Positions 20,059 to 37,757 of a stretch of DNA of 64,000 nt are shown here, one piece after another. Source of the stretch: Alteracholeplasma palmae J233 (GTDB lineage Bacteria > Bacillota_I > Bacilli_A > Acholeplasmatales > Acholeplasmataceae); NCBI RefSeq assembly GCF_000968055.1, contig NC_022538.1:372001-436000 (forward strand), given 5' to 3'. The notes beneath the pieces are model-generated. The model did no database searches. It was given only the letters and a program-made list of their open reading frames with translations, and was not told the DNA's origin. A program made the position numbers and the translations under genes. Each line of letters opens with the position of its first letter. The stretch's first letter is position 1.

Positions 20059-21006
20059 TTATAAAAATAAGATGGCAGTAGGTTCTGGTGTTTCTATACT
20101 ATCTAAAAAGCTTAAAGAACCATATTCATTTCTCTTAAATAAACAAATATTATTAGACTCAAGGTTACCTACTACTAAATAAGAACCATCATTTGAAATA
20201 CTAAAGTCTCTTGGATGACTACCATGCGTATCATAACTATTAACCAATGTTAAACCATTTTTATCGGCTTTAAAATGAACAATACTATTTTCAAAGCCTC
20301 TATTAGAAATATATAAATCGTTGTTAAAGAGTCTAATAGCCGCTGCTTGTTGTCCCATTTTAGTTTCATCTGCGACAGTAGAATAAGGATCTAGTAATTC
20401 ATGTTTTTTATAATCATAAACAAAAATTTGATTACTTAACTCGGCAACTATATAGAACTTATGATAATCATGATGAATCACAAGATGTCTAGGTCCGCTT
20501 TTTACTGCTAGAGTAAACTTATAGTCTAAAATAAGTTTTTTAAAAAGAGATACTTTATAAACAAAGACAGTATCTAATCCTAAATCACAAACTATCACTC
20601 TTCTTAGTTTATGATCATAGTATATTTGGTGAGCATGAGAATTATCACCTAGAAGGATTGTTTCGTGCAAGTTTAAGACGTTTTTCTTAAAAGTATAAGT
20701 TCTTATCTCGCCTCTTGTGTAATTGGCTGTAAAGACCATTTTTAAGTTTTTAGCATAACTTATATGAGACGGACCTTTTCCATTGTCTATGCTTTGAACT
20801 AAAAGTTTGTTATCTTTAAAAATACTCAAGCCACCTTCCTTGAAATCAGAATAAGTGGAAAAAATAAAACGATCATAGTAATCTAAATACGAAGGGTTAC
20901 TGCTTGTAAGAAAAAGTTCTGGCTTAGCTAACCTATCAGAAATAATTGATGCTTCATAAATACCCAAACTATTATTTTTAGTATAGGTTCCAATTAAAAA
21001 TTTCAA
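20059..21006 (-). CDS. Lactonase-family beta-propeller protein (6-phosphogluconolactonase-like)
   Basis: About 315 residues with repeating propeller blades of the YbhE/Lactonase family (Pfam PF10282). The family's segments 'GPSHISY', 'AHQIYYD', 'GPRHLVIH' and 'SHPRDFSISNDGSYLVVGN' recur in order. The N-terminus 'KFLIGTYTKNNSLGIY' also matches. The best start is TTG at 21006, about six bases after AGAGGTG. The GTG at 21015 overlaps that ribosome site and is less likely. Known members hydrolyse 6-phosphogluconolactone. No other pentose-phosphate gene is adjacent, so the true lactone is uncertain. Confidence 0.82.
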   Translation of the reverse strand: MKFLIGTYTKNNSLGIYEASIISDRLAKPELFLTSSNPSYLDYYDRFIFSTYSDFKEGGLSIFKDNKLLVQSIDNGKGPSHISYAKNLKMVFTANYTRGEIRTYTFKKNVLNLHETILLGDNSHAHQIYYDHKLRRVIVCDLGLDTVFVYKVSLFKKLILDYKFTLAVKSGPRHLVIHHDYHKFYIVAELSNQIFVYDYKKHELLDPYSTVADETKMGQQAAAIRLFNNDLYISNRGFENSIVHFKADKNGLTLVNSYDTHGSHPRDFSISNDGSYLVVGNLESNNICLFKRNEYGSLSFLDSIETPEPTAILFL

Positions 21007-21145
21007 AATAATCACCTCTCATGTCATTATAACATGCAAAAAATAAAAGTATAAAATAAACTGCTTGTTTCGGAGTTTAGAAGGTTGTTATTTTCTCTTA
21101 AAAGTGGTATAAATGGGTATATGTATTTATAAAAAGGAGAGGAAT

Positions 21146-24100
21146 ATGCAAAAACAAATAGATTATCTAGCGAAAAAAACACTAGACTTAAGCTTGAGAA
21201 ATCCTCAATTGAATTTTAGACCAGAAAGAAGCACAAATATTGAAATATTGGGAAATCTCCAAGATTTTTATGATCAGATTGTAAAAGACAATAAAGGACT
21301 TAATATCCATTTAAATAAATTAAATTTAATTAAAACAAATAGAGAAGAAACTGATTTAGAAAATGATTTATTAAATTTATATAGAAAACAAAAATTAACG
21401 ATTAATGAATATGGTTTTCACCCACTATATGCAGTTTTTGGCTTATTAAAGTGGATTGACCCTGCAAGCAATAAAGAAATACTATCACCATTATTAATGG
21501 TTCCAGTAGAAATTACAAAAAAAGGTTCTAAGCAATTAAACTTAGCTTACAATGAAGATGAGATTGTTCTGAATCCAACTTTAGTCCATAAACTATCGCT
21601 TGAAGGAATTGACTTATCAGTACATGATTTATTAGAACACCAAGCTTTTGATATTACACACTATCTTGATATCATACAAGGATTACCTAATATTAAAGAT
21701 CAGTATGAAGTGATACAAAAAAGTTATTTAGGATTATTTTCTTCAACTAATTTATATATATATAAAGATTTATTAGAAAATAAAAATCAAATTGAAACTC
21801 ATAAAATCATCCAAAGATTATATCAAAAGGATGAAGCAGATTATAACCAAGAAAATTTCATTTTGCCAAGCAACTTAGATGAAACATTAAAAGAAAAAAA
21901 TAATTATCAAATATTAAACGCAGATGGATCACAAGAAGCTGCTATTTTAGCTTCAACTGAAAATATGAGTTTTGTTTTACAAGGACCTCCAGGAACTGGA
22001 AAGAGTCAAACAATTACTAATATGATTGCCCAAGCAATCGCATCTAACAAGAAAGTGCTTTTTGTCTCAGAGAAAAAAGCAGCGTTAGATGTTGTATCAG
22101 AAAAGTTAAAAGCTAAAGGGTTAGATTTATTTACACTAGATTTACATCACTATCAAACTAAAAAAGATCAACTCATTCAACAATTAGTAAATGCAATTGA
22201 AGAGTATAAAGTTTTTGATTATGAAGAAAGTGAACTTTACAACAGATTAGATGCATTAAAAGAAAAATTAAATAAAAACTATAAATTCTTATATATTAAA
22301 AATCCTAATCTAGAATTATCTTTATATGAACTTTATGGTAAATTATTGGAATTAAAAGCATACCCAATTTTAAATTATAAGTTTGAAAAAATCTATGATT
22401 TAAAAGAAACTGAACTCCACTTAATGATTGATCAAGTTACTAGATTATCAAAAGTAGATCTTAATGAAAAAGAAATGCCCAGGGTATTTAAACAGTTAAA
22501 AGATAGTTTTAAAATGCCAAAAGAGCTCTTTCAAGAAGAAATTATTTATATCCAAAATAATCTAAAAAAATCAATTGAAATAAAGGAAAAGTACCAATTG
22601 GAAGTAGAAGATATAAAAGAGTTAGAATTAACTGAAAAATTATATGACTATCTCATCCAAATGCCACAATTTGAAAATCACCTTAAAGTTAAAAACTACC
22701 AACAAGCCTTAGAAGAAATAGAATTGATCGAAACTAAGCTAAAGGAAATAAAAAAACTAGGAATAGACTATCAGTTATTTGAAAAAGATTATGAAAAGAC
22801 TATTCACGTTTTATCTGAGACTAAAGGTTTTTTAGGTAGCCACAGTAAAGAATATAAAGAGTTATTTAAAGAAGTCACTCAGTATATCAATGATGCTAAA
22901 ATTAAACAGAATGATTTAGTTGAGCTGCTAACATCATATCAAGAATATTTTGAAGTAGTTGAAAAAAATAAAAATTATCATAATCTAAAAGAAGATAAAA
23001 AAATATTTAATTGGTTATTAAACCTTCCTAAAAAAATGAGTAAAAAAGATTTAGAAAAACAAACTCTACTTACTTTAAGCGAAAGAAAAGATAATCACAA
23101 AGAAATTAAAGACTATCTAACAAGCACGCAAAGAAGTCTAGATTTTTTAAATACTTTATATGAAAAAAATAATTTTACAAAATTAGAAAATAAACAAATA
23201 AAACCACTAAACGATATATTAACAAATTATGAATTGCTTAAACCTTATTTTGTTAAGAAAAAGTATGAAGATAAAATAAAAGATCCACTGATAACTAAGT
23301 TATATGAAAGTATTAAAGAATATGATTTAGCATCATGGGATAAAATCATCTTAAAACGTTATTATTTAGAATGGATGCAATACTTAGAGTTTAAAACACC
23401 AATAGAAGATACCAACGAACTAGTATTAGAAGATGAAAAATTATTTTCTGAACTAGAAGAAAGAAAACTTGAAGAGAATATACATAGAATTAAGAAAAAT
23501 GTTTTCTACCATTATCCAAAAGAAAACAGTAGTGAAGTAAAGACTATTTTAGCTGAAAACTTAAAAACAAGAGGAAAGAAAACAGTTAGACAACTTATTG
23601 ATTTAATTCCTGATACATTATTAAAAATGAAACCTTGTTGGTTAATGTCTCCTGTTACAGTAAGTGCATTTTTACCGAATACAGCTAACTTATTTGATTT
23701 AGTTATATTTGATGAAGCGTCACAAGTAGTTCCAGAATATGCGATTGGGTCTATCTATCGTTCGTCTCAAGTAATTATTTGTGGGGACCACGAACAACTT
23801 CCACCAACTAAATTCTTCAGTCAAGTAATGGAATTAGAAGATGAAGAATATGAGGAAATCAGTGATTACGAATCTATCTTAGACATTGCTAGAACAAGTT
23901 TATCAAGCTATCAATTAAATTGGCACTATAGAAGTAAATATAGTGAACTGATTGAATATTCTAATAAAAAAATATATCAAAGTTTAATTGCTGTTTCAGA
24001 ACCAAGTTTCCAGGCAGAAGGTATCAAATACCATCACTTAGAACAAGGATATTATGATAATCAAATTAACAGAAAAGAAGCTGAATATATTGCAAAAAAA

Positions 24101-25264
24101 GTAATAGAACATGCAAGAAAGACACCTAATCTTTCATTAGGAGTGATTGCCTTTAGTAGAAAACAAGAAAAGGAAATTGACTACCAAATAAGAAAACTGT
24201 TAAAGCATGAATCAGGTTTAGATAAATTCTTTGATGATGAAAAAGAAGAATATTTCTTTGTTAAGAATCTTGAAAACGTTCAAGGCGATGAAAGAGATGT
24301 TATTTATTTAAGTATTTGTTATGGTAAGAATAAAGAAGGTAAGTTAAGCTACAGATTCGGTCCTATCAACCAAGCAGTTGGATATAGAAGATTGAATGTT
24401 GCTATTACAAGAGCTAGAGAAGAGATGAATATTGTTTCATCTATTTTACCAAGTGACTTATCAGATCCTAATAAAAACCCTGGAATAGCCTTTTTAAAAG
24501 GATATTTAGAGTTTGCCTATGAACTTAAAAAGAATAAAATTACTTATCAAGATCCACAAGATAGCCTTACAAAAGATATATATGTATCTTTAAAAGAACA
24601 TCAATATAAAGTTTATTATAATGAAAAATTGTTTAATAGTTTATCAATAGAAGATGAAAATAAAGCTATTTGTATTTATATTGATAATCATGGCTATGCT
24701 AAATTACCAACATTAAAAGATAGAAATATTTTAGCACCAAGTTTAATTAAACAAAAAAATTGGGCAATTATTAAAATAGATGGTATTGCTTGGTATCAAA
24801 ATAAAGAAAATGAGCTTAAAAGTTTATTAGAACAAATTGAAAACTATCAAATTAAAAAGTATGTCAAGGTACCAGAAGAAAAAATTATTATAGAAAAACC
24901 TAAAGAAATTGAACCTGAAATAATACAAGTGGAAGAAAAACCAGAAATTTTAGACACTATTGAAGAAGAAGTTTTAGAAAAGCCAAGTAAAAGAGATCTA
25001 TTAGAAGGACAAATGATAAGAATTACTGTGGAAAATCTGCCTAGAACAGATGATGAAACAATTGTCCAATATGTAAAAAGATTTATTTTAGAAGTTATTG
25101 ATAAAGAAGAAGGAATCACTGAACTAGATTTAATGAAGAGATTAGCTCCACTTTATGAAACAAAAAAATTAAGTATACATGAAGTAAAAAGAATTCAACA
25201 ATGGCTAGAAATATGGAATGAAAAGAAAGAAATTACATATTCACAAGGTGTTATTACTGAATAA
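21146..25264 (+). CDS. Large DUF4011 / UPF1-like SF1 helicase with degenerate nuclease and DUF3320
   Basis: A 1372-residue protein. The N-terminus 'LDLSLRNPQLNF' is the DUF4011 motif. The split SF1 helicase core has Walker A GPPGTGKS at ~280, Walker B DEAS at ~856, 'GDHEQLPP' (motif III), 'VQGDERD' at ~1046 and 'NVAITRARE' at ~1085-1092. The ~550 residues between Walker A and B are long and rich in Lys/Glu, probably coiled coil. Residues ~1125-1210 resemble the Vsr-like MTES_1575 nuclease domain but lack its acidic catalytic residues. A DUF3320-like domain ends the protein. The start at 21146 has AAGGAGAGG upstream. Related proteins occur in defence loci such as Mokosh, but no partner gene is present here. 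Confidence 0.87.
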   Translation: MQKQIDYLAKKTLDLSLRNPQLNFRPERSTNIEILGNLQDFYDQIVKDNKGLNIHLNKLNLIKTNREETDLENDLLNLYRKQKLTINEYGFHPLYAVFGLLKWIDPASNKEILSPLLMVPVEITKKGSKQLNLAYNEDEIVLNPTLVHKLSLEGIDLSVHDLLEHQAFDITHYLDIIQGLPNIKDQYEVIQKSYLGLFSSTNLYIYKDLLENKNQIETHKIIQRLYQKDEADYNQENFILPSNLDETLKEKNNYQILNADGSQEAAILASTENMSFVLQGPPGTGKSQTITNMIAQAIASNKKVLFVSEKKAALDVVSEKLKAKGLDLFTLDLHHYQTKKDQLIQQLVNAIEEYKVFDYEESELYNRLDALKEKLNKNYKFLYIKNPNLELSLYELYGKLLELKAYPILNYKFEKIYDLKETELHLMIDQVTRLSKVDLNEKEMPRVFKQLKDSFKMPKELFQEEIIYIQNNLKKSIEIKEKYQLEVEDIKELELTEKLYDYLIQMPQFENHLKVKNYQQALEEIELIETKLKEIKKLGIDYQLFEKDYEKTIHVLSETKGFLGSHSKEYKELFKEVTQYINDAKIKQNDLVELLTSYQEYFEVVEKNKNYHNLKEDKKIFNWLLNLPKKMSKKDLEKQTLLTLSERKDNHKEIKDYLTSTQRSLDFLNTLYEKNNFTKLENKQIKPLNDILTNYELLKPYFVKKKYEDKIKDPLITKLYESIKEYDLASWDKIILKRYYLEWMQYLEFKTPIEDTNELVLEDEKLFSELEERKLEENIHRIKKNVFYHYPKENSSEVKTILAENLKTRGKKTVRQLIDLIPDTLLKMKPCWLMSPVTVSAFLPNTANLFDLVIFDEASQVVPEYAIGSIYRSSQVIICGDHEQLPPTKFFSQVMELEDEEYEEISDYESILDIARTSLSSYQLNWHYRSKYSELIEYSNKKIYQSLIAVSEPSFQAEGIKYHHLEQGYYDNQINRKEAEYIAKKVIEHARKTPNLSLGVIAFSRKQEKEIDYQIRKLLKHESGLDKFFDDEKEEYFFVKNLENVQGDERDVIYLSICYGKNKEGKLSYRFGPINQAVGYRRLNVAITRAREEMNIVSSILPSDLSDPNKNPGIAFLKGYLEFAYELKKNKITYQDPQDSLTKDIYVSLKEHQYKVYYNEKLFNSLSIEDENKAICIYIDNHGYAKLPTLKDRNILAPSLIKQKNWAIIKIDGIAWYQNKENELKSLLEQIENYQIKKYVKVPEEKIIIEKPKEIEPEIIQVEEKPEILDTIEEEVLEKPSKRDLLEGQMIRITVENLPRTDDETIVQYVKRFILEVIDKEEGITELDLMKRLAPLYETKKLSIHEVKRIQQWLEIWNEKKEITYSQGVITE

Positions 25265-25409: not shown

Positions 25410-26411
25410 ATGAGAATAAAGTATAATGATCTCGTTTTAAAGTTACAAGCTATCTTAGTTAATCACGGAGTAAGTGAAGTAGATGCCAACAACGCTGCAA
25501 AAATATTTGCTAAAAACAGTTTAGATGGTATTTATTCTCATGGTGTCAATAGATTTCCAAGATTCGTTTCTTACATAGATAAAGAATATGTGAAAAAAGA
25601 TAAAAAACCAACGGTAGAATTTGGTTTTAATGGGTTTGAAAGATGGAATGGGAATTTAGGTATTGGAGTTTTAAATGCTTCTAAAGCAATGGATAGAGCA
25701 TGTGAGCTTGCGGATAAATATGGGATTGGAATTGTTGCTTTAAACAATACAAACCACTGGATGCGTGGGGGTGCTTACGGCTGGCAAGCCGCAAACCTAG
25801 GTAAAATAGGCATCTGTTTTACAAATACCATGCCCAATATGCCTGCTTGGGGTGGAGTTGAACCTAAGATAGGAAATAATCCTTTTATTATTGCAATTCC
25901 AAAAAGTAATAAGGAACATGTTGTTTTAGATATGGCAATGAGCCAATTTGCTTATGGGAAAATTGAAGAAGCCAGAATGAAAGGGCAAGATTTACCTGTT
26001 GATGGTGGTTTTGATACAAAAGGAAATTTAACTAAAAACCCTGAAGAAATTGAAAAATCAGGAAGAGTTTTACCAACAGGTTATTGGAAAGGTAGCGGGT
26101 TATCAATTGTTTTAGATTTGGTTGCTGCTGTTTTATCAAATGGTAGATCAGTTACTGATGTTGGAAAACTTGAAGATGAATATGGTATTTCTCAAGTTTT
26201 TATAGCAATTGAACCTAATTTAAATAATACAAAAGAACAAATTGATAAAATAATAGATAATGTTATTAAGGATATAAAAGCATCAACACCAACTACAAAA
26301 GATGGAAAAATATTTTATCCTGGGGAAATCGAATTAAAAACTAGAAAAGAAAACTTAGAATTGGGGATTCCTGTATTAGAAGAAGTGTGGAAAAAGATTG
26401 AAAGTTTATAA
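25410..26411 (+). CDS. dlgD: 2,3-diketo-L-gulonate reductase-like dehydrogenase (YiaK/DlgD type)
   Basis: A 333-residue NAD(P)H oxidoreductase of the malate/L-lactate dehydrogenase (Ldh_2) family. It closely resembles E. coli YiaK: 'GVYSHGVNRFPRF'-type N-terminus, 'LNNTNHWMRGGAYGWQAA', 'IGNNPFIIAIP', 'LPVDGGFD' and 'PTGYWKGSGLSIVLD'. YiaK reduces 2,3-diketo-L-gulonate to 3-keto-L-gulonate. The gene has its own promoter with a cre-like site. It lies next to a LacI regulator and UxuA/UxuB, so a role in sugar-acid catabolism is likely, but the exact substrate could differ from the E. coli one. Confidence 0.87.
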   Translation: MRIKYNDLVLKLQAILVNHGVSEVDANNAAKIFAKNSLDGIYSHGVNRFPRFVSYIDKEYVKKDKKPTVEFGFNGFERWNGNLGIGVLNASKAMDRACELADKYGIGIVALNNTNHWMRGGAYGWQAANLGKIGICFTNTMPNMPAWGGVEPKIGNNPFIIAIPKSNKEHVVLDMAMSQFAYGKIEEARMKGQDLPVDGGFDTKGNLTKNPEEIEKSGRVLPTGYWKGSGLSIVLDLVAAVLSNGRSVTDVGKLEDEYGISQVFIAIEPNLNNTKEQIDKIIDNVIKDIKASTPTTKDGKIFYPGEIELKTRKENLELGIPVLEEVWKKIESL

Positions 26412-26454: not shown

Positions 26455-27525
26455 ATGAAAACTAAAACAAAAGATAATATTACTATTGATGACGTAGCAA
26501 GACTTGCAGGAGTTTCAAAAACTACCATATCTAGATACTTAAACGGCAAATATGAATTTATGTCAAAAGATACAAAAAACAAAATTGAAGAAATTATAAA
26601 AGAATATGATTATATGCCGAGTAATGTTGCTAGAAGTCTTAAAACCAAATCAACAAAGTTAATTGCTTTTGTTGTTTCAGATATAGAAAATGCCTTTGCA
26701 GCACCAACGATTAAATCGATGAATCGAGCACTTTTAAATACAAAATATCATATGATTGTCGCCTCATCTAATGAATCACAGGAACAAGAAAAAAAGTTAA
26801 TTGAGTCTTTGATAGAACAAAGAGTAGATGCGATTTTACTTAATCCAGTTTCATACGATGCTCCTTATATTGAGGAGTTTAATAAAAAAGTTCCAATTAT
26901 TTTAATAGATAGAGGCATTAAAAACCTTAATTTAGATATCGTAGCTAGTGATAGTAGCGAATCTATGCGACAAGCAGTAGAACATGTAAAACTTGCGGGA
27001 TTTTCTGAAATATATGTATTTACAGAGCCATATAGAAATGTGCAACCTAGATTTAGAAGAGTAGAAACATTTAAGACAACATTAAATAAATACGGATACC
27101 TAACTTCTCAAATAGAAGATTTAGTCGTTACTATTGATCCTAAAAAAACAGATAGACTTGAACAAGAACTTTTAAGAGTAATATCTACGACTAAAGTAGG
27201 TACCCCTGCTATCATTTGTACAAATGGTAGGACTTTATTAGCGGTAGCTTTAGCAATTAAAAATCTGGGCATAAGAGTGCCTTATGAATTAGGAATTATG
27301 GGATATGATGACTTTGGTGCTAATACAGCTCATGGTTGGACATTACTTAACAGACCTAGTATTAGTAGTATCTCTCCAAATTGGGATGCACTTGGCACAA
27401 AAGCAATTGAAGTTGTTCAGGAACGTTTAGAAAAGCCGTCAAGCTTAAAAAAAGAAGTAACAACAGAAGTGACTATGATTATTAGAGATAGCACAAAATT
27501 AATAACAACATATAGAGTAGACTAA
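26455..27525 (+). CDS. LacI-family transcriptional regulator
   Basis: A 356-residue repressor. The DNA-binding domain fills residues ~5-60 ('TIDDVARLAGVSKTTISRYLNG' with the hinge 'PSNVARSLKTKSTKLIAFV'). The rest is a periplasmic-binding-protein-like effector domain (GIMGYDDFG, 'ISSISPNWDALGTKA'). It lies between a sugar-acid dehydrogenase and the uxuAB run, just before two LacI-like operators (27645 and 27718). It is therefore probably the local hexuronate repressor, similar in role to KdgR of Bacillus. The effector is unknown but could be 2-keto-3-deoxygluconate. Confidence 0.92.
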   Translation: MKTKTKDNITIDDVARLAGVSKTTISRYLNGKYEFMSKDTKNKIEEIIKEYDYMPSNVARSLKTKSTKLIAFVVSDIENAFAAPTIKSMNRALLNTKYHMIVASSNESQEQEKKLIESLIEQRVDAILLNPVSYDAPYIEEFNKKVPIILIDRGIKNLNLDIVASDSSESMRQAVEHVKLAGFSEIYVFTEPYRNVQPRFRRVETFKTTLNKYGYLTSQIEDLVVTIDPKKTDRLEQELLRVISTTKVGTPAIICTNGRTLLAVALAIKNLGIRVPYELGIMGYDDFGANTAHGWTLLNRPSISSISPNWDALGTKAIEVVQERLEKPSSLKKEVTTEVTMIIRDSTKLITTYRVD

Positions 27526-27753: not shown

Positions 27754-29886
27754 ATGGGAAGAACTGTTAGAATGGGAATTGACGTTGGTGGGACACATAC
27801 AAAAGCAGTAGCAATTGATAATGAAACACACCAAGTAATAGGAAAGTCAAGTGTTAAAACAACACACGATCATAAATCAGGGGTTGCAGCAGGTGTTGTT
27901 GAATCCTTTATGAATTGTTTAAAAGAAAATAAAATTGATCCACAAGATGTTGTCTTTGTGGCTCATAGTACAACTCAAGCAACAAATGCTCTTATTGAAG
28001 GCGATGTGGCAAAAGTTGGTGTTTTAGGAATTGCCAAAGGTGGCATAGAAGCTTTCTTTGCTAAAAAACAAACTAATATGCATGAAATTGATTTAGGTTC
28101 AGGTAAAAAGATTGAAATTATCAATCGATTTGTTAAAACTAAAAAAGCACTTAAGAATCCAGAGAAATTTGGATTTGAAAAAGCTGTAGATGAACTTAAA
28201 AACGAAGGAGCAGAAGTTATAGTCGCCTCACAAGCTTTTGGTGTTGATGGTGTAAACTATGAGAAAAAAGTTGCTGAAATAGCAGAAAAAGTTGGGTTAT
28301 TTCCAACAATGGCTTCAGATATTACTAAATTATACGGATTAACTAGAAGAACTAGAACAGCAGTTATTAATGGTAGTATTTTACCTAAAATGCTTGATAC
28401 AGCTAACTCTACTGAACAATCAGTAAGGGCAGCCAATGTTCACGTACCTTTAATGATTATGCGTGGCGATGGGGGAGTTATGGAAATCGCTGAAATGAAA
28501 AAAAGACCGGTTTTAACTATGTTATCTGGTCCAGCTGCTTCAGTTATGGGATCATTAATGTATTTAAGAGCATCCAATGGTGTTTACTTTGAAGTTGGTG
28601 GAACAACCACTAATATCGGAGTTATTAAAAATGGTAGACCAGCAATTGATTATTCTCAAGTAGGGAAGCATAGAACATATATTAGTTCTCTTGATGTGAA
28701 AATTTTGGGTTGTGCTGGTGGTTCTATGGTAAGAGCTAATAAAGAGGGTGTCATTGATGTAGGACCAAGAAGCGCGCATATTGCAGGGCTAGACTATTCA
28801 GTTTATACTAAACCATCAGAAATTGTTAACCCAAAAGTAGAATTCTTTTCTCCAAAACCTGGGGATCCAAGTGATTATGTTGCGGTTAGATTAGAAAATG
28901 GAAAAAGAGTGACAATTACTAATTCATGTGCAGCTAACGTTTTAGGCTTGGTGACAAAAGAACACTTCTCATATGGTGAAGTAGAATCAGCAAGAAAAGC
29001 AATTGGTGCCCTTGCAGAATACTGTAATACAACAGTTGAAGATATCGCTACTCAAATTATGGAACGTGCTTATGCAAAAATTGAACCAGTTATTTTAGGC
29101 TTAGCAGAAAAATATAAGTTAGAAAAAGATCAAATTACTCTAGTTGGTGTAGGTGGTGGAGCAGCTTCTCTAATTATTTATTTTGCTAATAAAATGGGAT
29201 TAAACTATAGTATTCCTGAAAATGCAGAAGTTATTTCATCTATTGGGGTAGCACTTGCAATGGTTCGTGATGTTGTAGAAAGAGTCATTCCATCTCCATC
29301 AAAAGAAGAAATTAAAGCAATTAAACTAGAAGCAATGAATAAAGCAATCGAAAGTGGAGCAACCCCTGACAGTGTTGAAGTTCATATTGATATTGACCCT
29401 CAAACTTCTAAAGTTACGGCAATCGCTACAGGTTCTACTGAAGTAAAAACTTCTAGCACAATGAAAGAACTAAGTGAAAAAGAAGCTTTAGAGTTAGCCG
29501 CAAAAGATTTAAGAACAACTGAGAAAGAAGTTAAATTGGAAACTAAAACAAAATACTTTTATGTTTTTGAAAAAGATAACAAAAGCGGAAGAGCACTTCG
29601 TATTATTGATAAAAAAGGGTTTATTAGAGTCCAAAGAGGAAATGGGATATCTGTTAAAACAACAGTTGAAAATTACTTAGAAGTAGTGAAAGACTTATGG
29701 GAAAAGATGGCATCTTATCAAGCAGAAGTAATATTAAGACCTGATTATTATGTTTGTGCAGGACCGAGATTAATGGATTTTTCTAGTATTCACTTTGAAC
29801 AATTAGCTTTATTAATGGATACTCAATTATCAGACTTAGACGAAAATGAAGAAGTAATTATTATTGCGGCAAACGCAGAAGTATAA
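27754..29886 (+). CDS. HyuA-like hydantoinase/oxoprolinase family protein, stand-alone
   Basis: A 710-residue protein of the hydantoinase A/oxoprolinase family, with the ASKHA ATP-binding fold. The phosphate loop 'GIDVGGTHTKAVAID' is near the N-terminus; 'LSGPAASVMG' and 'FEVGGTTTNIGVI' are central; 'VGVGGGAASLI' is near residue 470. Members hydrolyse cyclic amides in an ATP-dependent manner (hydantoin, 5-oxoproline) or activate acetone with a HyuB partner. No HyuB gene is visible here. It is the first gene of the operon with uxuA and uxuB behind LacI-like operators, an unusual setting. The substrate is unknown; a lactam or lactone of a sugar acid is possible. Confidence 0.88.
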   Translation: MGRTVRMGIDVGGTHTKAVAIDNETHQVIGKSSVKTTHDHKSGVAAGVVESFMNCLKENKIDPQDVVFVAHSTTQATNALIEGDVAKVGVLGIAKGGIEAFFAKKQTNMHEIDLGSGKKIEIINRFVKTKKALKNPEKFGFEKAVDELKNEGAEVIVASQAFGVDGVNYEKKVAEIAEKVGLFPTMASDITKLYGLTRRTRTAVINGSILPKMLDTANSTEQSVRAANVHVPLMIMRGDGGVMEIAEMKKRPVLTMLSGPAASVMGSLMYLRASNGVYFEVGGTTTNIGVIKNGRPAIDYSQVGKHRTYISSLDVKILGCAGGSMVRANKEGVIDVGPRSAHIAGLDYSVYTKPSEIVNPKVEFFSPKPGDPSDYVAVRLENGKRVTITNSCAANVLGLVTKEHFSYGEVESARKAIGALAEYCNTTVEDIATQIMERAYAKIEPVILGLAEKYKLEKDQITLVGVGGGAASLIIYFANKMGLNYSIPENAEVISSIGVALAMVRDVVERVIPSPSKEEIKAIKLEAMNKAIESGATPDSVEVHIDIDPQTSKVTAIATGSTEVKTSSTMKELSEKEALELAAKDLRTTEKEVKLETKTKYFYVFEKDNKSGRALRIIDKKGFIRVQRGNGISVKTTVENYLEVVKDLWEKMASYQAEVILRPDYYVCAGPRLMDFSSIHFEQLALLMDTQLSDLDENEEVIIIAANAEV

Positions 29887-29901: not shown

Positions 29902-30969
29902 ATGAAAATGACATTTAGATGGTTTGGTAAAAAATTTGATTCAGTATCACTTGAACAAATTAGACAAGTTCCTGGTGTAACGGGTGTAATAACTACTTTA
30001 TATGATACTAAACCAGGTGAGGTTTGGAGTAAAGAAAAAATTGCTAGTCTAAAAAAAGAAGTCGAACAATCAGGACTTAAAATTGAAGGGATTGAAAGTG
30101 TTAATATTCATGATGATATTAAGACTGGTGGTAAAAATAGAGATTTATATATTAAAAACTATATTACTACTTTAGAAAACTTAGCTGCTAATGATATTAG
30201 ACTCGTATGTTATAATTTTATGCCTGTATTTGATTGGACAAGATCAGATTTGGCAAAAGTTAGAAAAGATGGTTCAACTGTCTTATCATATGATCAAGAA
30301 TTAGTTGATAAAATCGATCCGGATAACATGTTTGATTCTATATCAGAAAAAGCAAACGGTTTCATTCTTCCTGGATGGGAGCCTGAAAGAATGGAAAGAA
30401 TCAAATCACTATTTAAAGAGTATGAACATATTGATGAAAATCAATTATTTGAAAATCTTGTATACTTCCTTGAAAAAATAATGCCTACATGTGATAAATA
30501 TAATATTGATATGGCAATTCACCCAGATGATCCAGCATGGAAAGTATTTGGCTTATCAAGAATTATTAACAGTAAAGACAATCTATTAAAACTAATGAAA
30601 AGAGTCAATAATCCTCATAATGGAGTGACATTCTGTTCTGGTTCTTTAGGGTCAAATCCTAAAAATGATTTAGTAGATATTATTCACAGTTTAAAAGGTA
30701 GAATTCATTTTGCTCATCTAAGAAACATTATTTACTTAGGAGAAAAGAAGTTTGATGAAGCTGCACATTTATCAAGTGATGGATCACTTGATATGTACCA
30801 AATTGTAAAAGCACTATATGATATTGGTTTTGATGGACCTATTAGACCAGATCATGGTAGAGCAGTTTGGAATGAGGTTTCAATGCCGGGTTATGGTTTA
30901 TATGATAGAGCTATGGGAGCTACTTATTTAAATGGATTATGGGAAGCTATCTCTAAATCTGGAAAGTAG
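29902..30969 (+). CDS. uxuA: Mannonate dehydratase
   Basis: UxuA dehydrates D-mannonate to 2-keto-3-deoxy-D-gluconate in hexuronate catabolism. The 355-residue protein has the family N-terminus 'MTFRWFGKKFDSVSLEQIRQVPGV', 'CYNFMPVFDWTR', 'GWEPERMERIKSLF', 'AIHPDDP', 'CSGSLGS' and 'RPDHGR', all conserved in UxuA (a metal-binding TIM-barrel enzyme). AAGGAGG lies just before the ATG, 15 bases after the HyuA-like gene. It is followed at once by UxuB, which makes its substrate. The KDG kinase and aldolase needed next are not in the window. Confidence 0.97.
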   Translation: MKMTFRWFGKKFDSVSLEQIRQVPGVTGVITTLYDTKPGEVWSKEKIASLKKEVEQSGLKIEGIESVNIHDDIKTGGKNRDLYIKNYITTLENLAANDIRLVCYNFMPVFDWTRSDLAKVRKDGSTVLSYDQELVDKIDPDNMFDSISEKANGFILPGWEPERMERIKSLFKEYEHIDENQLFENLVYFLEKIMPTCDKYNIDMAIHPDDPAWKVFGLSRIINSKDNLLKLMKRVNNPHNGVTFCSGSLGSNPKNDLVDIIHSLKGRIHFAHLRNIIYLGEKKFDEAAHLSSDGSLDMYQIVKALYDIGFDGPIRPDHGRAVWNEVSMPGYGLYDRAMGATYLNGLWEAISKSGK

Positions 30970-30976
30970 GTAAAAA

Positions 30977-32578
30977 ATGAAACTAAAACTAAGTGATATA
31001 TCTAATCCAGAATATAAAACTAAAAACTATAAACTACCGCAATATGATATTAATAAAGTTAGAAAAAATACACATAAAAATCCGACATGGATTCACTTTG
31101 GCGCAGGGAATATATTTAGAGCCTTTTTAGCAAAACTCCAACAACATCTATTAAATCAAAAACTAACTGATAAAGGAATTATAGTTGCTGAAGGATTTGA
31201 TTATGAAATCATAGATAAAATCTTTAAACCATATGATTTATTGACACTAGCAGTAGAACTAAAATCAGATGGAACAGTTGATAAAGAAGTGATTGCATCT
31301 ATGACAGAAGGCTTAAAGTTTGATCCTATGTTTAAAGATGATTTTAAAAGATTAGTTACAGTCTTTGAAAATGATAGTTTAGAAATTGCTTCTTTCACTA
31401 TTACTGAAAAAGGCTATGAATTGAAAAATAATCAAAATCAATATTATCCATTAGTGTTAGATGATTTTAAAAATGGTACTAAAGAGCCTAAAAGTTATTT
31501 AGGTAAAGTAGTTTACCTACTATTAAAAAGATTTAATAAAAATAAAAAACCACTTACATTAGTGAGTATGGATAATTATTCTCATAATGGAACCAAACTT
31601 AAAAACTCTATCTTAGACATTGCAAAAAACTGGGAAAAAGAAAATCTAGTAGGAAAAGACTTTATCGATTACCTAGAAAATAGTATTTCTTATCCATGGA
31701 CAATGATAGATAAGATTACACCAAGACCTGATGAAAAAGTTGCACAATTGCTAAAACAAGAAAATTTCTTAGATATTGAAACAATCGTTACAGAAAAACA
31801 TACATATGTTGCACCTTATGTAAATGCAGAAGAAACTGAATATTTAGTAGTAGAAGATAACTTTAAAAATGGAAGACCGAGTTTAGAAAAAGTAGGTGTT
31901 ATTTTTACCACACAAGAAACAGTGGATAAAGTAGAAAAAATGAAAGTTTCAACTTGCTTAAATCCACTACATACAGCACTTGCGATATATGGATGTCTCT
32001 TAGGTTTTACTAAGATTTCAGATGAAATGAAAGACCCGGCACTTGTATCTATGATTAAAAAAATAGGATATGAAGAAGGATTAAAAGTAGTAGTTGATCC
32101 TAAGATTATTAATCCTAAAGCATTTATAGATCAAGTAATTAATAAAAGGTTACCTAACCCATTTATGCCAGATACACCGCAGAGAATAGCAACAGATACT
32201 TCTCAAAAAATATCCATTAGATTTGGGCAAACAATTAAAGCATATATTAAAGATCCAAATTTAGATGAAAAAGATCTTAAAGTTATTCCGCTTGTTTTAG
32301 CAGGATGGATTAGATATTTAATGGGAATTGATGATGCAGGTAATAAGTTTACTGTTAGTCCTGATCCTTTATATCCTGAACTTTACGAACATGTAAAGGA
32401 TATTAAACTAGGAGATAAAATTCACCTAGAAAAAATAGAATATCTACTTGCTGATGAAAAAGTATTTGGACTAGACTTAACAAAGACCCAATTAGCACCT
32501 ATGATTATTGATTATTTTAATGAACTTAACCAAGGAAAAAATGCAGTAAAAAGAACCTTGGATAAGTACTTATTGTAA
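30977..32578 (+). CDS. uxuB: Fructuronate reductase (mannitol dehydrogenase family)
   Basis: UxuB reduces D-fructuronate to D-mannonate with NADH. The 533-residue protein has the dinucleotide motif 'WIHFGAGNIFRAFLA' (residues ~38-52) and the polyol-dehydrogenase catalytic pattern 'KMKVSTCLNPLHTALA', which provides the active-site Lys, Asn and His. 'SMDNYSHNGTKL' is also conserved. The ATG follows uxuA after seven bases with an AGG ribosome site in the overlap region. Uronate isomerase (uxaC), which makes fructuronate, is not seen in the window. Confidence 0.95.
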   Translation: MKLKLSDISNPEYKTKNYKLPQYDINKVRKNTHKNPTWIHFGAGNIFRAFLAKLQQHLLNQKLTDKGIIVAEGFDYEIIDKIFKPYDLLTLAVELKSDGTVDKEVIASMTEGLKFDPMFKDDFKRLVTVFENDSLEIASFTITEKGYELKNNQNQYYPLVLDDFKNGTKEPKSYLGKVVYLLLKRFNKNKKPLTLVSMDNYSHNGTKLKNSILDIAKNWEKENLVGKDFIDYLENSISYPWTMIDKITPRPDEKVAQLLKQENFLDIETIVTEKHTYVAPYVNAEETEYLVVEDNFKNGRPSLEKVGVIFTTQETVDKVEKMKVSTCLNPLHTALAIYGCLLGFTKISDEMKDPALVSMIKKIGYEEGLKVVVDPKIINPKAFIDQVINKRLPNPFMPDTPQRIATDTSQKISIRFGQTIKAYIKDPNLDEKDLKVIPLVLAGWIRYLMGIDDAGNKFTVSPDPLYPELYEHVKDIKLGDKIHLEKIEYLLADEKVFGLDLTKTQLAPMIIDYFNELNQGKNAVKRTLDKYLL

Positions 32579-32673: not shown

Positions 32674-34176
32674 ATGGAGAGATTACTACAAGTAGTAAAC
32701 ACATTTGCGACAGTCACACAAGGTTCAGGATTACACATATATGCTATTATTGCAACAGTGTTACTATTAATCAGTTTAGTTGGATTTATTTATTATTGTG
32801 TTAAAGGTGGAAACCTTATTATTGGTTTATTTATAACAGCAACATTCTGGTTTTTACTAGGGGTTACCTATTCACTTTGGAGTGCGAGTGTTAACTCGCA
32901 AATAGAAAGTTTCAAAGATGCATGGAACATTTTTGCAGGTAATCTTAATTTAGTCTTTAGCGATGGACCAATCAACTACGGGACAACTACAACAGTTATT
33001 ATATTTGCTAGCTGGTTTGGTAGAGTAATTGTTGATACTGGTATTGCTAAAGCCTTAATCAAGAAAGTAGTAGAGTTATCTGGTGATATGCAACTTGTTA
33101 CAGTGATTGTATTATCAATTGTAACAGCTTTACTATTTACAAGTATTTTTGGACCTGGTAGTGTTATGGCAATAGGTGCAATCATTCTTCCAATTTTATT
33201 AACTATTGGAGTCAATAAGAAAGTAGCAGTAGGATCATTTTTAATGGCAGTTGCTGCAGGGATGTATGTAAATAAAGGATTCTCAATTCAGTTTTCAACT
33301 AACCCATTCTTTGAACAAATTTGGAGTATCCCTGGGTTTGCATCAGACTTTACTGTCTTTACATGGTTAGCGTTTTTAGTACACGTTGTCTTTATGATAG
33401 GATTTATCGTATTTAATATGTATTTTGCAAAAGATAAGATTAAATCATGGGCAATGGCAGATGATGGAATGGAAAAGGAAGTTAAAGGTATTTCATTTAT
33501 CGTACCATTTATTCCAGCAATTATCTCATTAACAATAGCAATTATTAATATGTTTTTACCAGCAAACGTTCAACCAACAGCAACATCACCAGGGGTTATT
33601 AATCAAATAACTGATGTTGCTGCTATTACATCCTTTGTAATAGGTATTATATTAGGACTTGCCCTAACAGGAAACTTAAAAACATATAAGAAAGCAATTG
33701 AAACATCTCAAAAAACTTTATTTAATGGTATCTCAGATGTTGCTTTACTAATTGGTATGTTATTAGTACTTAACATGTTCTCAACAGCAGCAAGTAAGCT
33801 TGCCGCACCTATTTTCCAAACTGCATTAGGTGATTCTTTAAATGGATTAGCTAATAATCCAATATGGATTGTAGTGGCATTTGCTATCTTAGCTCCACTT
33901 GCCTTATTTAGAGGACCATTCATGGTCTGGGGTTCAGGAATCGCATTAGTAACTGTTATGTCCACATTCATACCAGCTACAACACCATTATTATTAGTAT
34001 TATTCTATGTTCAACCAGTAGCAATCGTTGCGCAAAGTTGTCCAACGCAATCTTGGGGTATGTGGGCATTATCATATGCTAAATATGAGCCTAATACATT
34101 TATTAAAACAAATATTCCTTGGGCATGGGCAATCTGTGCGATTAACATATTCTTAGCATACTTTATCTTAATGTAA
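32674..34176 (+). CDS. Ion-transporter superfamily permease, first copy
   Basis: A 500-residue membrane protein with about twelve helices, resembling the IT superfamily (GntP/CitMHS-like sugar-acid and carboxylate carriers). It is clearly paralogous to the permease at 35310: 'DGPINYGTTTTVIIFASWFG' against 'DGPQGYGASILTNIFFGAFF', then 'VMAIGAIILPILLTIG' against 'VMAIAVIVLPILLTIG' and a shared 'FRGP' segment. The position after uxuB suggests uptake of glucuronate, fructuronate or aldonates, but the substrate is inferred. A 95-base gap with no terminator separates it from uxuB; AAGGAG precedes the ATG. It is the first gene of a three-gene module repeated downstream. Confidence 0.83.
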   Translation: MERLLQVVNTFATVTQGSGLHIYAIIATVLLLISLVGFIYYCVKGGNLIIGLFITATFWFLLGVTYSLWSASVNSQIESFKDAWNIFAGNLNLVFSDGPINYGTTTTVIIFASWFGRVIVDTGIAKALIKKVVELSGDMQLVTVIVLSIVTALLFTSIFGPGSVMAIGAIILPILLTIGVNKKVAVGSFLMAVAAGMYVNKGFSIQFSTNPFFEQIWSIPGFASDFTVFTWLAFLVHVVFMIGFIVFNMYFAKDKIKSWAMADDGMEKEVKGISFIVPFIPAIISLTIAIINMFLPANVQPTATSPGVINQITDVAAITSFVIGIILGLALTGNLKTYKKAIETSQKTLFNGISDVALLIGMLLVLNMFSTAASKLAAPIFQTALGDSLNGLANNPIWIVVAFAILAPLALFRGPFMVWGSGIALVTVMSTFIPATTPLLLVLFYVQPVAIVAQSCPTQSWGMWALSYAKYEPNTFIKTNIPWAWAICAINIFLAYFILM

Positions 34177-34189
34177 GGAGAAATAAAAA

Positions 34190-34789
34190 ATGACTAAAGT
34201 GGATAATATCAAAGTGATAATAGAAAGACCTGATTTTGATTGGTACGAAGAAATGGTAAAAAGTTCAACTTTTGGGAAAAAGATTACCAAAGATCAAAGA
34301 GAAGTATTTATTAAAAAAGCGATGGAACAGGCAGAAAAATTCAAGAATAAGCTTATCAGTGAATACGGAAATAAAGAGCCAATGGGTTATATTATTACCT
34401 TTGATATACCACTTGAGTATAAAAAAGAAGAACCTACATATGGATATCAGTATTTAGGCTATTATAGAACTAAAAATAAATCGATTGCAGTTAATTATAC
34501 AACCCTTAATCTTATACAAAAAAAGTGTAAGGAAAAAGGATTTAATGAAGTTGAAATCGATAAAATAAAAGATACTGTTTTAATGCATGAACTTTTTCAC
34601 TACCTAGAAGATTTATTTCCTAGTGATTATACTAAAGAAAAGCATTTTGAAACAAAAACTTTTGGATTATTTAAAAGTAAAATTAACTTATCAATTATAA
34701 GCGAAATTACAGCTGTTCATTTTTCAAAGTTAATGACAAAACTAAAACATAGTCCCAAAGTGTATGAATATATTTATAAAAAATATTGA
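34190..34789 (+). CDS. HExxH protein (M78/ImmA-like metallopeptidase), first copy
   Basis: A 199-residue soluble protein with no signal peptide. 'LMHELFHYLED' places H133, E134 and H137, the zinc-peptidase motif; 'ISEITAVHFSK' puts a candidate third ligand Glu at 172, 35 residues after H137. The same arrangement occurs in the protein at 36890, so they are homologues. The pattern resembles IrrE/ImmA (M78), where HExxH is followed by an 'E..A..FA' helix. AAGGAG lies 13 bases before the ATG, directly after the permease gene. I do not know its target; cleavage of a regulator or of the neighbouring membrane protein are guesses. Confidence 0.7.
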   Translation: MTKVDNIKVIIERPDFDWYEEMVKSSTFGKKITKDQREVFIKKAMEQAEKFKNKLISEYGNKEPMGYIITFDIPLEYKKEEPTYGYQYLGYYRTKNKSIAVNYTTLNLIQKKCKEKGFNEVEIDKIKDTVLMHELFHYLEDLFPSDYTKEKHFETKTFGLFKSKINLSIISEITAVHFSKLMTKLKHSPKVYEYIYKKY

Positions 34790-34806
34790 CAAAAACGAGG
34801 TACTTT

Positions 34807-35235
34807 ATGGAAATATTAGGAAAAAAAAGTAATGCAGCATACTATTTAAATATTATATTAATCGCAGTCATATTTTTGTCTGCGGTTTTTTTATTTATTA
34901 TTGGGTTTTTAAAAATAGATGAGCTTTCAACAATATTATTTATAGCCATTTTAGCGCTATTTGTTATAGCTCCTATAAAAGAAATTCAATTATCAAAAAA
35001 GAGAAATGAAGTGATTATATTTAAAAAAGGAAATAATGTTTCTGTTACTAATCTTAAAAATGAAGTTTTGAAATTAAATGAAATAAATATTATAAATGTT
35101 AAGAAGTACAAAATACCATTTCTTAGTTTTGGAACATTAATGTTTTATACAGAAACTAAAAAAGTAAAATGTTCATATATTAAAAAGGTAGATGAAGTAT
35201 ATGATTATTTTAAAAAAGAAGTTATCAGTCTTTAA
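34807..35235 (+). CDS. Two-helix membrane protein with cytosolic C-terminal domain
   Basis: A 142-residue protein. Two helices lie at about residues 13-36 and 43-60. A soluble C-terminal domain of ~75 residues is mostly beta (such as 'NEVIIFKKGNNVSVTNLKNE' and 'FLSFGTLMFYTETKKVKC'), which resembles the small bacterial PH-like domains of membrane proteins (YdbT/bPH2 type), though the match is weak. I start at the ATG at 34807, with ACGAGG upstream. It directly follows the HExxH gene, as a smaller two-helix protein does in the second copy of the module. Function unknown. Confidence 0.68.
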   Translation: MEILGKKSNAAYYLNIILIAVIFLSAVFLFIIGFLKIDELSTILFIAILALFVIAPIKEIQLSKKRNEVIIFKKGNNVSVTNLKNEVLKLNEINIINVKKYKIPFLSFGTLMFYTETKKVKCSYIKKVDEVYDYFKKEVISL

Positions 35236-35309
35236 TATTTTAAAAGAAGAAAGGAGAGTAAAAATTATTGTAGTAGTTAAGCAACAAAAAAACAAAAGGA
35301 GAGAAAAAT

Positions 35310-36836
35310 ATGGAACAAACAGTTGCGATTATTTTAGGTGTTATCCTACTAGCAAGCATTGGCTTTCTAGTATGGTATTGTATCAAAGGATACAACATTA
35401 TGGTTGGTTTCTTTGTAGTAGCACTTTTATGGACAATCATAGGTGTGATAGGAAATCAAGTGATTTCATCAGGTGAGTATATGAATACATTCTTCTCATA
35501 TACTAAGACAGATGCTGATGGTGTTGTCCACAATCTACATAGAAGTGGGCTAGAGGCTATACTATTTGCGATTAAGCATTCATTCCAAGATGGACCACAA
35601 GGCTATGGAGCATCCATTTTAACTAATATTTTCTTTGGGGCATTCTTTGGAAGAATTTTAATTGATACAAATATTGCCTCAACTATTATTAGAAAAACAG
35701 TAGAATTAGGTGGCGATAAGCCACGTGTTACATTAGCATTATTATCAATTGTAACAGCTATTTTATTTGTTAATATGACAGGTATTGGCCCAGTTATGGC
35801 AATTGCTGTAATTGTATTACCAATCTTACTAACAATAGGAATACCTCCAGGGGTTGCTTTATTCTCATTTATGGGATCTATTATGGCCGGTATACTAGTA
35901 AATCCAGTAAACTTTAAGCAGTATCACGGAATTGTTAAAACAGCAGTTGAAAATGCTTTAGGTAAAGGTTCTAGTGCTTATGGTTTAATTGATGGATATG
36001 ATTATGGAAATTATGCAGCATTTGGCTGGATTGGATTAGCGATTGTAGTAGTAGGTGTTATTTTAGTATCTAATATTGCCTTAGGCTTTAAGAAAAAAAC
36101 ATATGCTTGGGCAGTAGATATTCCAGATCAACAAGGGAATATCGAAAAACAAGATGCACCTTGGTATTCATGGTTATCTATTTTAATTCCAGTAGTTTTA
36201 ATCACTGTATTTAATATGATTAAGTTTAATGAAATACCAGGAAAAGAGCCTTCTAATTTCACTAGTTTCTCAACGATTCTAGCATTTATTATAGCGGGTA
36301 TATATGCCTTATTAACAACAGGCAAATTTAAAGGTGGATATAAAAAAGTAGTGGGAAGAATTTCTAAGTACTTCGCAGATGGTGCAATGGATGTCGCTCC
36401 TATGGTCGGCTTCTTACTAGCACTTGCAATGTTTAATAACGCTGCAGGGTTAAATATTCCTTACTTAAAAGTAATCGTAGGGGGAATTATTCCTTCATCA
36501 GCAGTGGCACTTGCATTAGTGTTTGCATTTATTTCAATAGGAAGTTTCTTTAGAGGACCAATTAATTTAGTGGGATCGGGATCAGCGTTTGCAACAATCG
36601 TATTTGTCAGTTTAGGAGATCCAGCAGTAACTGCATTAGGTATTGGATTTATTTATATCTTATTCTCTGTAACAACAGTTGTACCACAACATATTGATAT
36701 TACCCAATCTTGGGTTGCATGGGGCTTTGGTTATACCAATGTTAAACCAAAAGACTTTATGAAGATGTCTATTCCAACAGGATATATCTTATCAATCATT
36801 TTAGTGCTACTAGCACTAGTTATGTACGGTATTTAA
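35310..36836 (+). CDS. Ion-transporter superfamily permease, second copy
   Basis: A 508-residue paralogue of the permease at 32674 with about twelve helices (see shared segments there). It differs by a longer extracellular loop near residues 50-75 ('SYTKTDADGVVHNLHR') and a hydrophilic loop near 250-280. 'FFRGPINLVGSG' and 'QHIDITQSWVAWGFGY' correspond to 'LFRGPFMVWGSG' and 'QSCPTQSWGMWALSY' in the first copy. An AAAAGGAGAG site precedes the ATG. Two permeases in one locus suggest two related sugar acids, or uptake and release. The substrate is unknown. Confidence 0.83.
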   Translation: MEQTVAIILGVILLASIGFLVWYCIKGYNIMVGFFVVALLWTIIGVIGNQVISSGEYMNTFFSYTKTDADGVVHNLHRSGLEAILFAIKHSFQDGPQGYGASILTNIFFGAFFGRILIDTNIASTIIRKTVELGGDKPRVTLALLSIVTAILFVNMTGIGPVMAIAVIVLPILLTIGIPPGVALFSFMGSIMAGILVNPVNFKQYHGIVKTAVENALGKGSSAYGLIDGYDYGNYAAFGWIGLAIVVVGVILVSNIALGFKKKTYAWAVDIPDQQGNIEKQDAPWYSWLSILIPVVLITVFNMIKFNEIPGKEPSNFTSFSTILAFIIAGIYALLTTGKFKGGYKKVVGRISKYFADGAMDVAPMVGFLLALAMFNNAAGLNIPYLKVIVGGIIPSSAVALALVFAFISIGSFFRGPINLVGSGSAFATIVFVSLGDPAVTALGIGFIYILFSVTTVVPQHIDITQSWVAWGFGYTNVKPKDFMKMSIPTGYILSIILVLLALVMYGI

Positions 36837-36845
36837 AAAATAATA

Positions 36846-36874
36846 GAGTGCCCTCTAGCAATAGAGGGCTACTC
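36846..36874 (+). other. Strong GNRA-capped hairpin between permease and HExxH genes
   Basis: GAGT+GCCCTCTA (36846-36857), loop GCAA, TAGAGGGC-t-ACTC (36862-36874): a twelve-pair stem with one bulge and a GNRA tetraloop. No T-tract follows, so it is not a standard terminator. It may protect or process the mRNA, or bind a protein. Confidence 0.6.
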
Positions 36875-36889
36875 ATTAAAGAGGTATAT

Positions 36890-37582
36890 ATGAGTATAGA
36901 ATTAAAAAAAATCATTAATGATTTAAAGCATATACCTATTCAAGTATGGGGAAGATATGCAATTAAAAGAGATATTTTATATAATAAGATTAAAGAATCA
37001 GAGTATGATGATCTGATTTTAAACGCGCATGAATGTGGTATTTTTTATGCAAATAAAATAAAAGATGAATTAGAAGAAAAAGATCCTTTTAAGATTGCGG
37101 ATAAATTAAATATTAAAATTTCTGAAGAAGAAAATAAACCAGGAAGTAAAAGATTAGTTTTTGCGACTTTTACAACACCTAATAAAGTTGTTTTGATGAA
37201 AACGCCTATTTATAAAATTATTAATCATACACAAAAGTTAGATAATGAGAATAAGATTGATTTTGATGTAACTACAATAAAATCTATTTTACTTACACAT
37301 GAGATATTTCACTTTATTGAAAATAAATACAAAAAAGAAATCTATACTCAAAATAAACAAATTGTGTTATGGGAATTATTAGGGTATAAGCATAAATCGA
37401 ACTTAAGAGTTTTAAGTGAGATTGCTGCTATGTCTTTTGCACAAACTTTAAGTGGAGTTTTATACTCACCCTTTATGATAGATATTATTATGTTATATCC
37501 ATATAATAAAGAAGGTGCAGTGAAACTTTATAAAAGTATATTGGAAATTAATAGAAAGTGGGAGACTACAAATGAAAAATAA
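36890..37582 (+). CDS. HExxH protein (M78/ImmA-like metallopeptidase), second copy
   Basis: A 230-residue soluble protein. 'DPFKIADKLNIKIS' near residue 65 is the usual N-terminal segment of IrrE/ImmA (M78) proteins. 'LLTHEIFHFIEN' gives H137, E138 and H141, and 'VLSEIAAMSFAQTL' gives Glu177, 36 residues later, with the M78 'E..A..FA' pattern. It is homologous to the protein at 34190. ImmA peptidases cleave XRE repressors, but no XRE gene is adjacent here. I start at the ATG at 36890 behind GAGG; an upstream GTG would begin inside the hairpin. It overlaps the next gene by eleven bases. Confidence 0.75.
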   Translation: MSIELKKIINDLKHIPIQVWGRYAIKRDILYNKIKESEYDDLILNAHECGIFYANKIKDELEEKDPFKIADKLNIKISEEENKPGSKRLVFATFTTPNKVVLMKTPIYKIINHTQKLDNENKIDFDVTTIKSILLTHEIFHFIENKYKKEIYTQNKQIVLWELLGYKHKSNLRVLSEIAAMSFAQTLSGVLYSPFMIDIIMLYPYNKEGAVKLYKSILEINRKWETTNEK

Positions 37583-37757
37583 GCACTATCTTTCAACTTC
37601 AATCTTTTTGTTTCTAGGCTCTTTTATATTCTTATTTATTTTTATTATGCAAATAATGGAAATAGGTTTTGGATGGAATAGTCTAAGTAATGTCTTTTTA
37701 AGTTTTACATTATTAGTTTCAGGAATACTGATTTTTAAAAAATATAAAAGTAAATAA
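37572..37757 (+). CDS. Small two-helix membrane protein
   Basis: A 61-residue protein with helices at about residues 9-30 and 38-54, and a basic C-terminus (KKYKSK). It starts inside the end of the HExxH gene behind a weak GGGAG site, so it is translationally coupled. The helical hairpin resembles the N-terminal half of the protein at 34807, which follows the first HExxH gene; it lacks the soluble domain. Unknown function, possibly a truncated copy or a partner of the HExxH protein. Confidence 0.6.
   Translation: MKNKHYLSTSIFLFLGSFIFLFIFIMQIMEIGFGWNSLSNVFLSFTLLVSGILIFKKYKSK

Follow-up and report, generated by a model that had tools for sequence, protein, structure and literature searches.

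Putative small zinc hydrolases encoded with a permease and an orphan HyuA-type ATPase in bacterial catabolic loci

Introduction

The closest described counterparts of the locus reported here are the M78 (ImmA/IrrE/PprI) zincins, the hexuronate catabolism loci (UxuA/UxuB/KdgK/KdgA) and the HyuA-HyuB/CapAB enzymes (hydantoinase, oxoprolinase and caprolactamase). M78 relatives are intracellular proteases. We analyzed a stretch of 64,000 nucleotides from Alteracholeplasma palmae J233 (contig NC_022538.1, positions 372,001 to 436,000 of the forward strand; this whole stretch is called the window below), in which two genes for small proteins with an HExxH motif, HExxH1 and HExxH2, each follow a permease gene and lie downstream of a gene for a HyuA-like ATPase. 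In caprolactamase, ATP is held by CapA while the zinc site essential for hydrolysis lies on CapB, and activity is lost when the Zn ligands are mutated (PMC8453981).

The HyuA-like protein resembles its classical counterparts in its Hydant_A_N and Hydantoinase_A domains, in its phosphate-1 motif and in being accompanied by a permease in catabolic operons, but its genomes are without HyuB and an HExxH protein adjoins it; we call it orphan HyuA. With hexuronate catabolism loci the window shares UxuA, UxuB-like and YiaK-like enzymes, and KdgK-like and 2-keto-3-deoxy-6-phosphogluconate aldolase-like genes occur in a related locus (L063; G and L numbers are our handles for genomes and loci), whereas the permease-HyuA-HExxH unit that the window carries is present also in loci without hexuronate genes. 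The HExxH proteins share with M78 an HExxH helix followed by E-x-x-A-x-x-F, but the structural model places an additional beta-hairpin between the active and the Glu helices and extends the helical part at the N-terminus, and what constantly accompanies them is a catabolic ATPase instead of a helix-turn-helix regulator. In the open literature on hydantoinase/HyuA tied to sugar-acid catabolism or zincins, we found nothing relevant.

Our preferred explanation, which we hold tentatively, is that a zinc hydrolase of the HExxH type takes the place of HyuB and acts together with orphan HyuA on sugar-acid-like amides or lactams brought into the cell. The HExxH family may thus be a missing component of a HyuA enzyme.

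Results and Discussion

Conserved linkage of HExxH, HyuA and permease genes

An HExxH gene, a HyuA-like gene and a permease gene lie together on one strand in 19 readable loci (one each in G240, G362, G342, G556, G569, G260, G469, G586, G687, G648, G200, G829, G754, G595, G789, G816 and G664, and two in G735). Of 17 loci measured, 12 have the HyuA stop and the HExxH start -11 to +14 base pairs (bp) apart; the permease stands between the two genes in G664 and in one G735 locus, three genes separate them in G840, and contig ends hide the HyuA position in G827 and G009. A first-pass annotation of this DNA had proposed a module of permease, HExxH protein and two-helix protein, occurring twice. Reading of the neighborhoods bore out the linkage of permease and HExxH in many genomes, while the most informative neighbor, the HyuA-like gene without HyuB, had been overlooked.

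The linkage extends to whole genomes, which were sampled evenly, so that totals are not exhaustive. In the class draw, HyuA occurs in 10 of 390 genomes, and the 9 genomes of 395 with strong HExxH matches all belong to those 10; in the draw around G586, 13 of 295 genomes have HyuA and 12 have HExxH, all among those 13. No strong HExxH match was found in a genome without HyuA in either draw. Fisher tests give p values of about 1e-17 (class draw) and 1e-20 (G586 draw) that ignore shared ancestry, and we lean more on the occurrence across several families and operon types than on these values. Taken together, the HExxH protein, a permease resembling the ion transporter (IT) superfamily and the orphan HyuA-type ATPase may form a conserved functional unit, a proposal as tentative as the explanation to which it belongs.

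Clear orthologues occur in one relative only, of the same genus (88 genomes of the family searched), which keeps the order permease 1, HExxH1, two-helix gene, permease 2 and HExxH2 over two contigs. Profile searches of two sampled groups detected the HExxH family in 22 genomes, including members of other families and classes; the 1.55 Mb genome of A. palmae yielded no copies beyond HExxH1 and HExxH2. In the family set, 21 genomes contribute 25 sequences that are intact or nearly so, and G840 adds a frameshifted copy (L088 7559-8200), broken over two frames and either a pseudogene or an assembly error. Weak profile matches in L043 and L050, the latter a YgjP/DUF45-like zincin by sequence, were dismissed as spurious or unrelated, as were those in L026-L028, L044, L045, L076 and L077; the open reading frames matched in L011 and L012 belong to unrelated genes (YchF/FtsZ region, GntR regulator).

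M78-like profile of the HExxH proteins

The two histidines and the glutamate of HExxH (H133, E134 and H137 in HExxH1) are invariant in 25/25 sequences, the downstream acid (E172) is E in 24 and D in one, and F178 (HExxH1 numbering) is invariant as well. The proteins are under purifying selection (ratio of nonsynonymous to synonymous rates, dN/dS, 0.18-0.30), and no transmembrane segment is predicted. Neither HExxH1 nor HExxH2 matches Pfam PF06114 (M78) above the cut-off (0 families each), M78 is absent among the families matched by 14 scanned members at E <= 1, and no family in Pfam, NCBIfam, PADLOC or PHROG is consistently matched by the scanned members. Searches of PDB sequences with HExxH proteins, singly and as a profile, returned nothing meaningful. 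In hhalign, however, the family profile aligned with 13 collected M78 proteins (prob 92.8, score 49.5), and 60 shuffles that kept the HExxH columns reached a maximum score of 33.0. A first AlphaFold2 (AF2) model, built from 5 sequences, was too weak and gave no fold match. For the second, of HExxH2 (pLDDT 89.8, pTM 0.88), the highest-probability Foldseek match in the PDB is PprI (0.60, at a weak E of 0.73), and the top BFVD (viral) matches include IrrE (prob 0.97, weak E of 0.047, TM about 0.3). The family is therefore best called M78-like, on its profile and on hints from the predicted structure, and is no proven member of M78. The M78 kinship suggested in the first pass survives as a profile relation that exceeds the motif alone, and not as Pfam M78 membership, which none of the scanned members has.

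We tentatively regard the HExxH proteins as a so far undescribed family of M78-like zinc hydrolases, small and cytosolic, with catalysis putative. Alternatively, they might be non-catalytic, serving HyuA as metal chaperone or structural subunit, as the little conservation beyond the metal site would allow; we consider this very unlikely, given that 25/25 sequences retain the general-base Glu of HExxH, which is dispensable for binding the metal.

Orphan HyuA and the proposed role of the HExxH protein

HyuB (PF02538) was found in 0/22 carrier genomes, some of them incomplete, and in 6/14 of a control set. With motif definitions taken from PMC8453981, the phosphate-1 motif of HyuA, DVGGT (DxGGT), is kept in 22/22 sequences (the window gene and 21 homologues). 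As a separate observation, the phosphate-1 region reads HTK or NTK in uronate-type members versus mostly FTD in others.

In the proposed scheme, the permease would import a sugar-acid-like compound bearing an amide or lactam bond, HyuA would activate that bond at the expense of ATP, like CapA on caprolactam, and the zinc site of the HExxH protein would perform the hydrolysis done by HyuB/CapB in classical systems. The product would then enter the local pathway, in the window that of the YiaK-like, UxuB-like and UxuA enzymes. What the data show is the gene unit, its nearly one-to-one occurrence with HyuA, the lack of HyuB, the unvarying metal site and the M78-like profile relation; that the HExxH proteins are catalytic, what class of substrate is used and that HExxH takes over from HyuB is what we infer. 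Somewhat more doubtful is the wider claim of a so far undescribed type of ATP-dependent hydrolase, its HyuB metal subunit exchanged for an unrelated M78-like zincin, that with its matched permease would serve as a front end of general use in the catabolism of sugar-acid-like amides or lactams. If true, the scheme would provide a function for a zincin family absent from the searched libraries and for a HyuB-less HyuA clade, would be a case in which a catalytic metal subunit is replaced by a non-homologous protein, and would move the M78-like fold from regulator proteolysis into metabolism. Even if the replacement of HyuB is wrong, the near one-to-one linkage indicates a dedicated, testable partner of HyuA or the permease.

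Several observations weigh against HExxH standing in for HyuB. In 22/22 sequences HyuA has ExGGT for the phosphate-2 DxGGT and GPRS[AC]H[IL]A at the expected adenosine GxxPGP position; its chemistry may therefore differ from that of CapA, and orphan HyuA is thus a distinct subfamily. Few HExxH residues are conserved beyond the metal site among the 25 sequences. Moreover, nonsynonymous divergence (dN) is about 0.17-0.27 for HExxH, 0.045-0.067 for HyuA and 0.053-0.109 for the permease, so that HExxH changes about fourfold faster than HyuA (dN about 0.25 vs 0.055), which is unusual for an obligate catalytic subunit. We know of no characterized M78-fold protein that hydrolyzes a small molecule; the ones we know of act on proteins. 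The linkage also has exceptions. A second Anaerosalibacter HExxH copy (L019, 5671-6360) has no HyuA or permease beside it and sits between DUF523-like and ROK-like genes, with GH3-like and NlpC/P60-like genes near; the same organism also has, in L063, a complete operon of permease, HyuA, HExxH, YiaK and UxuA genes. In G615, where HyuA is followed by a transposase and the contig end, no HExxH was detected, and G410 has a divergent HyuA (36% identity) without HExxH and with DUF4127-type neighbors. In the latter genome (L062 5557-10321), the divergent HyuA adjoins a DUF4127 protein and a flavin adenine dinucleotide (FAD) oxidoreductase, and DUF4127 might stand in for HExxH there.

Beside HyuA genes and PF12831 FAD oxidoreductases we also noticed small, related-looking proteins with SCPKN/SLPKN...KVHxNVHHxASG (L087 1616-2293, L086 12093-12785, L062 6996-7817), of which one has a weak partial NanE match and one a weak DeoC match; they are possibly an unnamed family.

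Permease subtypes and a processing role

The permeases of HExxH loci are one family, and their matches to Pfam CitMHS stay below its cut-off (24.6 and 30.4 bits vs 31.9). Permease 1 and HExxH1 cluster with G240, G342, G362, G556 and G569; permease 2 clusters with G260 and G469, as does HExxH2 more loosely. The single HyuA of the window, 71-72% identical to those of G260 and G469 and 57-58% to others, is shared by the two subtypes. A recent tandem duplication was rejected, since the two pairs are different subtypes found apart in other families; judging from these clusters, the window combines two old lineages, with no fresh duplication.

The HExxH type tracks the permease type, with Mantel r of 0.915 with the permease and 0.83 with HyuA, both inflated by shared ancestry. 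A protease dedicated to HyuA or the permease, which it would mature, tune or remove in the way of a processing peptidase with one target, could account for this co-variation, for the presence of two permeases and two HExxH proteins with one HyuA in the window, and for the fast evolution of HExxH, and it has a precedent in the intracellular proteases of M78. The strong hairpins, free of U-runs, that directly precede HExxH in the window and in G009 and G687 point the same way and may reduce HExxH output relative to the upstream gene. In G009 (L015 5607-5640) the hairpin is of other sequence at the equivalent place (z -5.7), and in G687 (L080 6625-6654) it differs in sequence again and spans 13 bp; no such hairpin was found before HExxH in L083, L084, L030 or L090, loci with gaps. 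On the other side, processing leaves the loss of HyuB from all 22 genomes unexplained, the genes in most loci are spaced as if HyuA and HExxH were closely coupled in translation, and the inflation of the Mantel correlations lessens their weight. We regard processing as rather unlikely in absolute terms, yet nearly as likely as the replacement of HyuB.

Operon context, regulators and two-helix proteins

The genes downstream of the unit vary, including UxuA/UxuB/YiaK/KdgK, NanE with ROK, glycerate kinase, threonate kinase and FAD oxidoreductase, and a constant unit with varied downstream pathways is expected of a shared first step. Some loci carry further genes that would suit a peptidase for an imported sugar-peptide or amino-acid conjugate, working apart from the chemistry of HyuA: L090 and L091 add a 1-aminocyclopropane-1-carboxylate (ACC)-deaminase/D-cysteine-desulfhydrase-like gene and an amidohydrolase, an M81/MlrC gene is present in L085, and the L019 copy adjoins NlpC/P60-like, GH3-like and ROK genes. 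An independent activity does not predict the near one-to-one linkage with HyuA, and we think this role improbable.

The regulators differ among loci, being LacI in the window, L029-L031 and L047, IclR-like in L063 and L090-L091, ROK/NagC-type in L033, L084 and L087, and GntR-type in L085-L086. The regulator cleavage put forward in the first pass, by which an ImmA-like protease would cut a transcription regulator or the two-helix protein and so control the transport genes, draws on the M78-like fold and the LacI regulator in the locus. It is disfavored by the constancy of the HExxH gene beside regulators of unrelated families, and the alternative target fares no better, as the two-helix proteins are mutually unrelated and missing outside the genus. 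Of all the roles weighed here, this is the one that we find hardest to credit.

The six reading frames of the first-pass annotation are present, and the metal-site residues in Table 1 were verified in the translations. The claimed repeat stands for the permeases (32% identity over about 500 amino acids, E 2e-54) and for HExxH1 and HExxH2 (25% identity over 175 amino acids, E 2e-14, beyond chance), and not for the third gene: the two-helix proteins (142 and 61 residues) gave no mutual alignment at E <= 100. Homologues of the two (42% and 38%, respectively) turned up in a single genome of the same genus and nowhere else. There, the first two-helix gene lies about 350 bp from HExxH1 and so seems to open the unit that follows. 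With neither protein in neighborhoods outside the genus, the two-helix gene was rejected as part of the module; relatives separate it from the other two genes, whereas permease and HExxH are kept together.

Table 1. Features of the unit and its neighbors in the window (positions counted from the first letter of the window)
Feature	Coordinates	Strand	Evidence and remarks
YiaK-like 3-dehydro-L-gulonate 2-dehydrogenase, Ldh_2 family	25410..26411	+	Pfam Ldh_2; NCBIfam equivalog 438 bits vs cut-off 316; locus catabolic gene
LacI-family regulator	26455..27525	+	Pfam LacI 1.4e-17
Orphan HyuA-like ATPase (Hydantoinase_A)	27754..29886	+	Pfam Hydantoinase_A 5.7e-60; co-occurrence; motifs; genome without HyuB
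UxuA mannonate dehydratase	29902..30969	+	Pfam 1.2e-143; NCBIfam 477.6 bits
UxuB-like long-chain mannitol/fructuronate dehydrogenase	30977..32578	+	Pfam Mannitol_dh, Mannitol_dh_C; best NCBIfam match fructuronate reductase, below cut-off
Permease 1, subtype A	32674..34176	+	66-72% to type A permeases; 32% to permease 2
HExxH1, subtype A, 199 amino acids	34190..34789	+	H133, E134, H137, E172
Two-helix protein, 142 residues, C-terminal soluble part	34807..35235	+	Genus-only; probably outside module
Permease 2, subtype B	35310..36836	+	Remote CitMHS 1.6e-5, below cut-off; 53-54% to G260, G469 permeases
Intercistronic RNA hairpin without U-run, permease 2/HExxH2 gap	36841..36878	+	z -4.8
HExxH2, subtype B, 230 amino acids	36890..37582	+	H137, E138, H141, E177; AF2 model
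Small two-helix protein, 61 amino acids	37572..37757	+	Homologue only within genus

Other features of the window

A plasmid or viral origin of the locus was considered and rejected, with zero plasmid matches, no viral-contig relative and nothing consistent in PADLOC or PHROG. A search for cre-like operators found 91 against 76 expected, an excess too small to use. Upstream of the unit, the window encodes a 1383-residue DUF4011/AAA helicase-like protein (21113-25264) with a REase_MTES_1575-like end below cut-off, which looks like a defense-type nuclease-helicase. Farther upstream are a lactonase-family beta-propeller protein (20059-21015, minus strand) and a ManA-like isomerase (18967-20019); ManA-like genes also occur 3' of HExxH in L029-L031 and L049.

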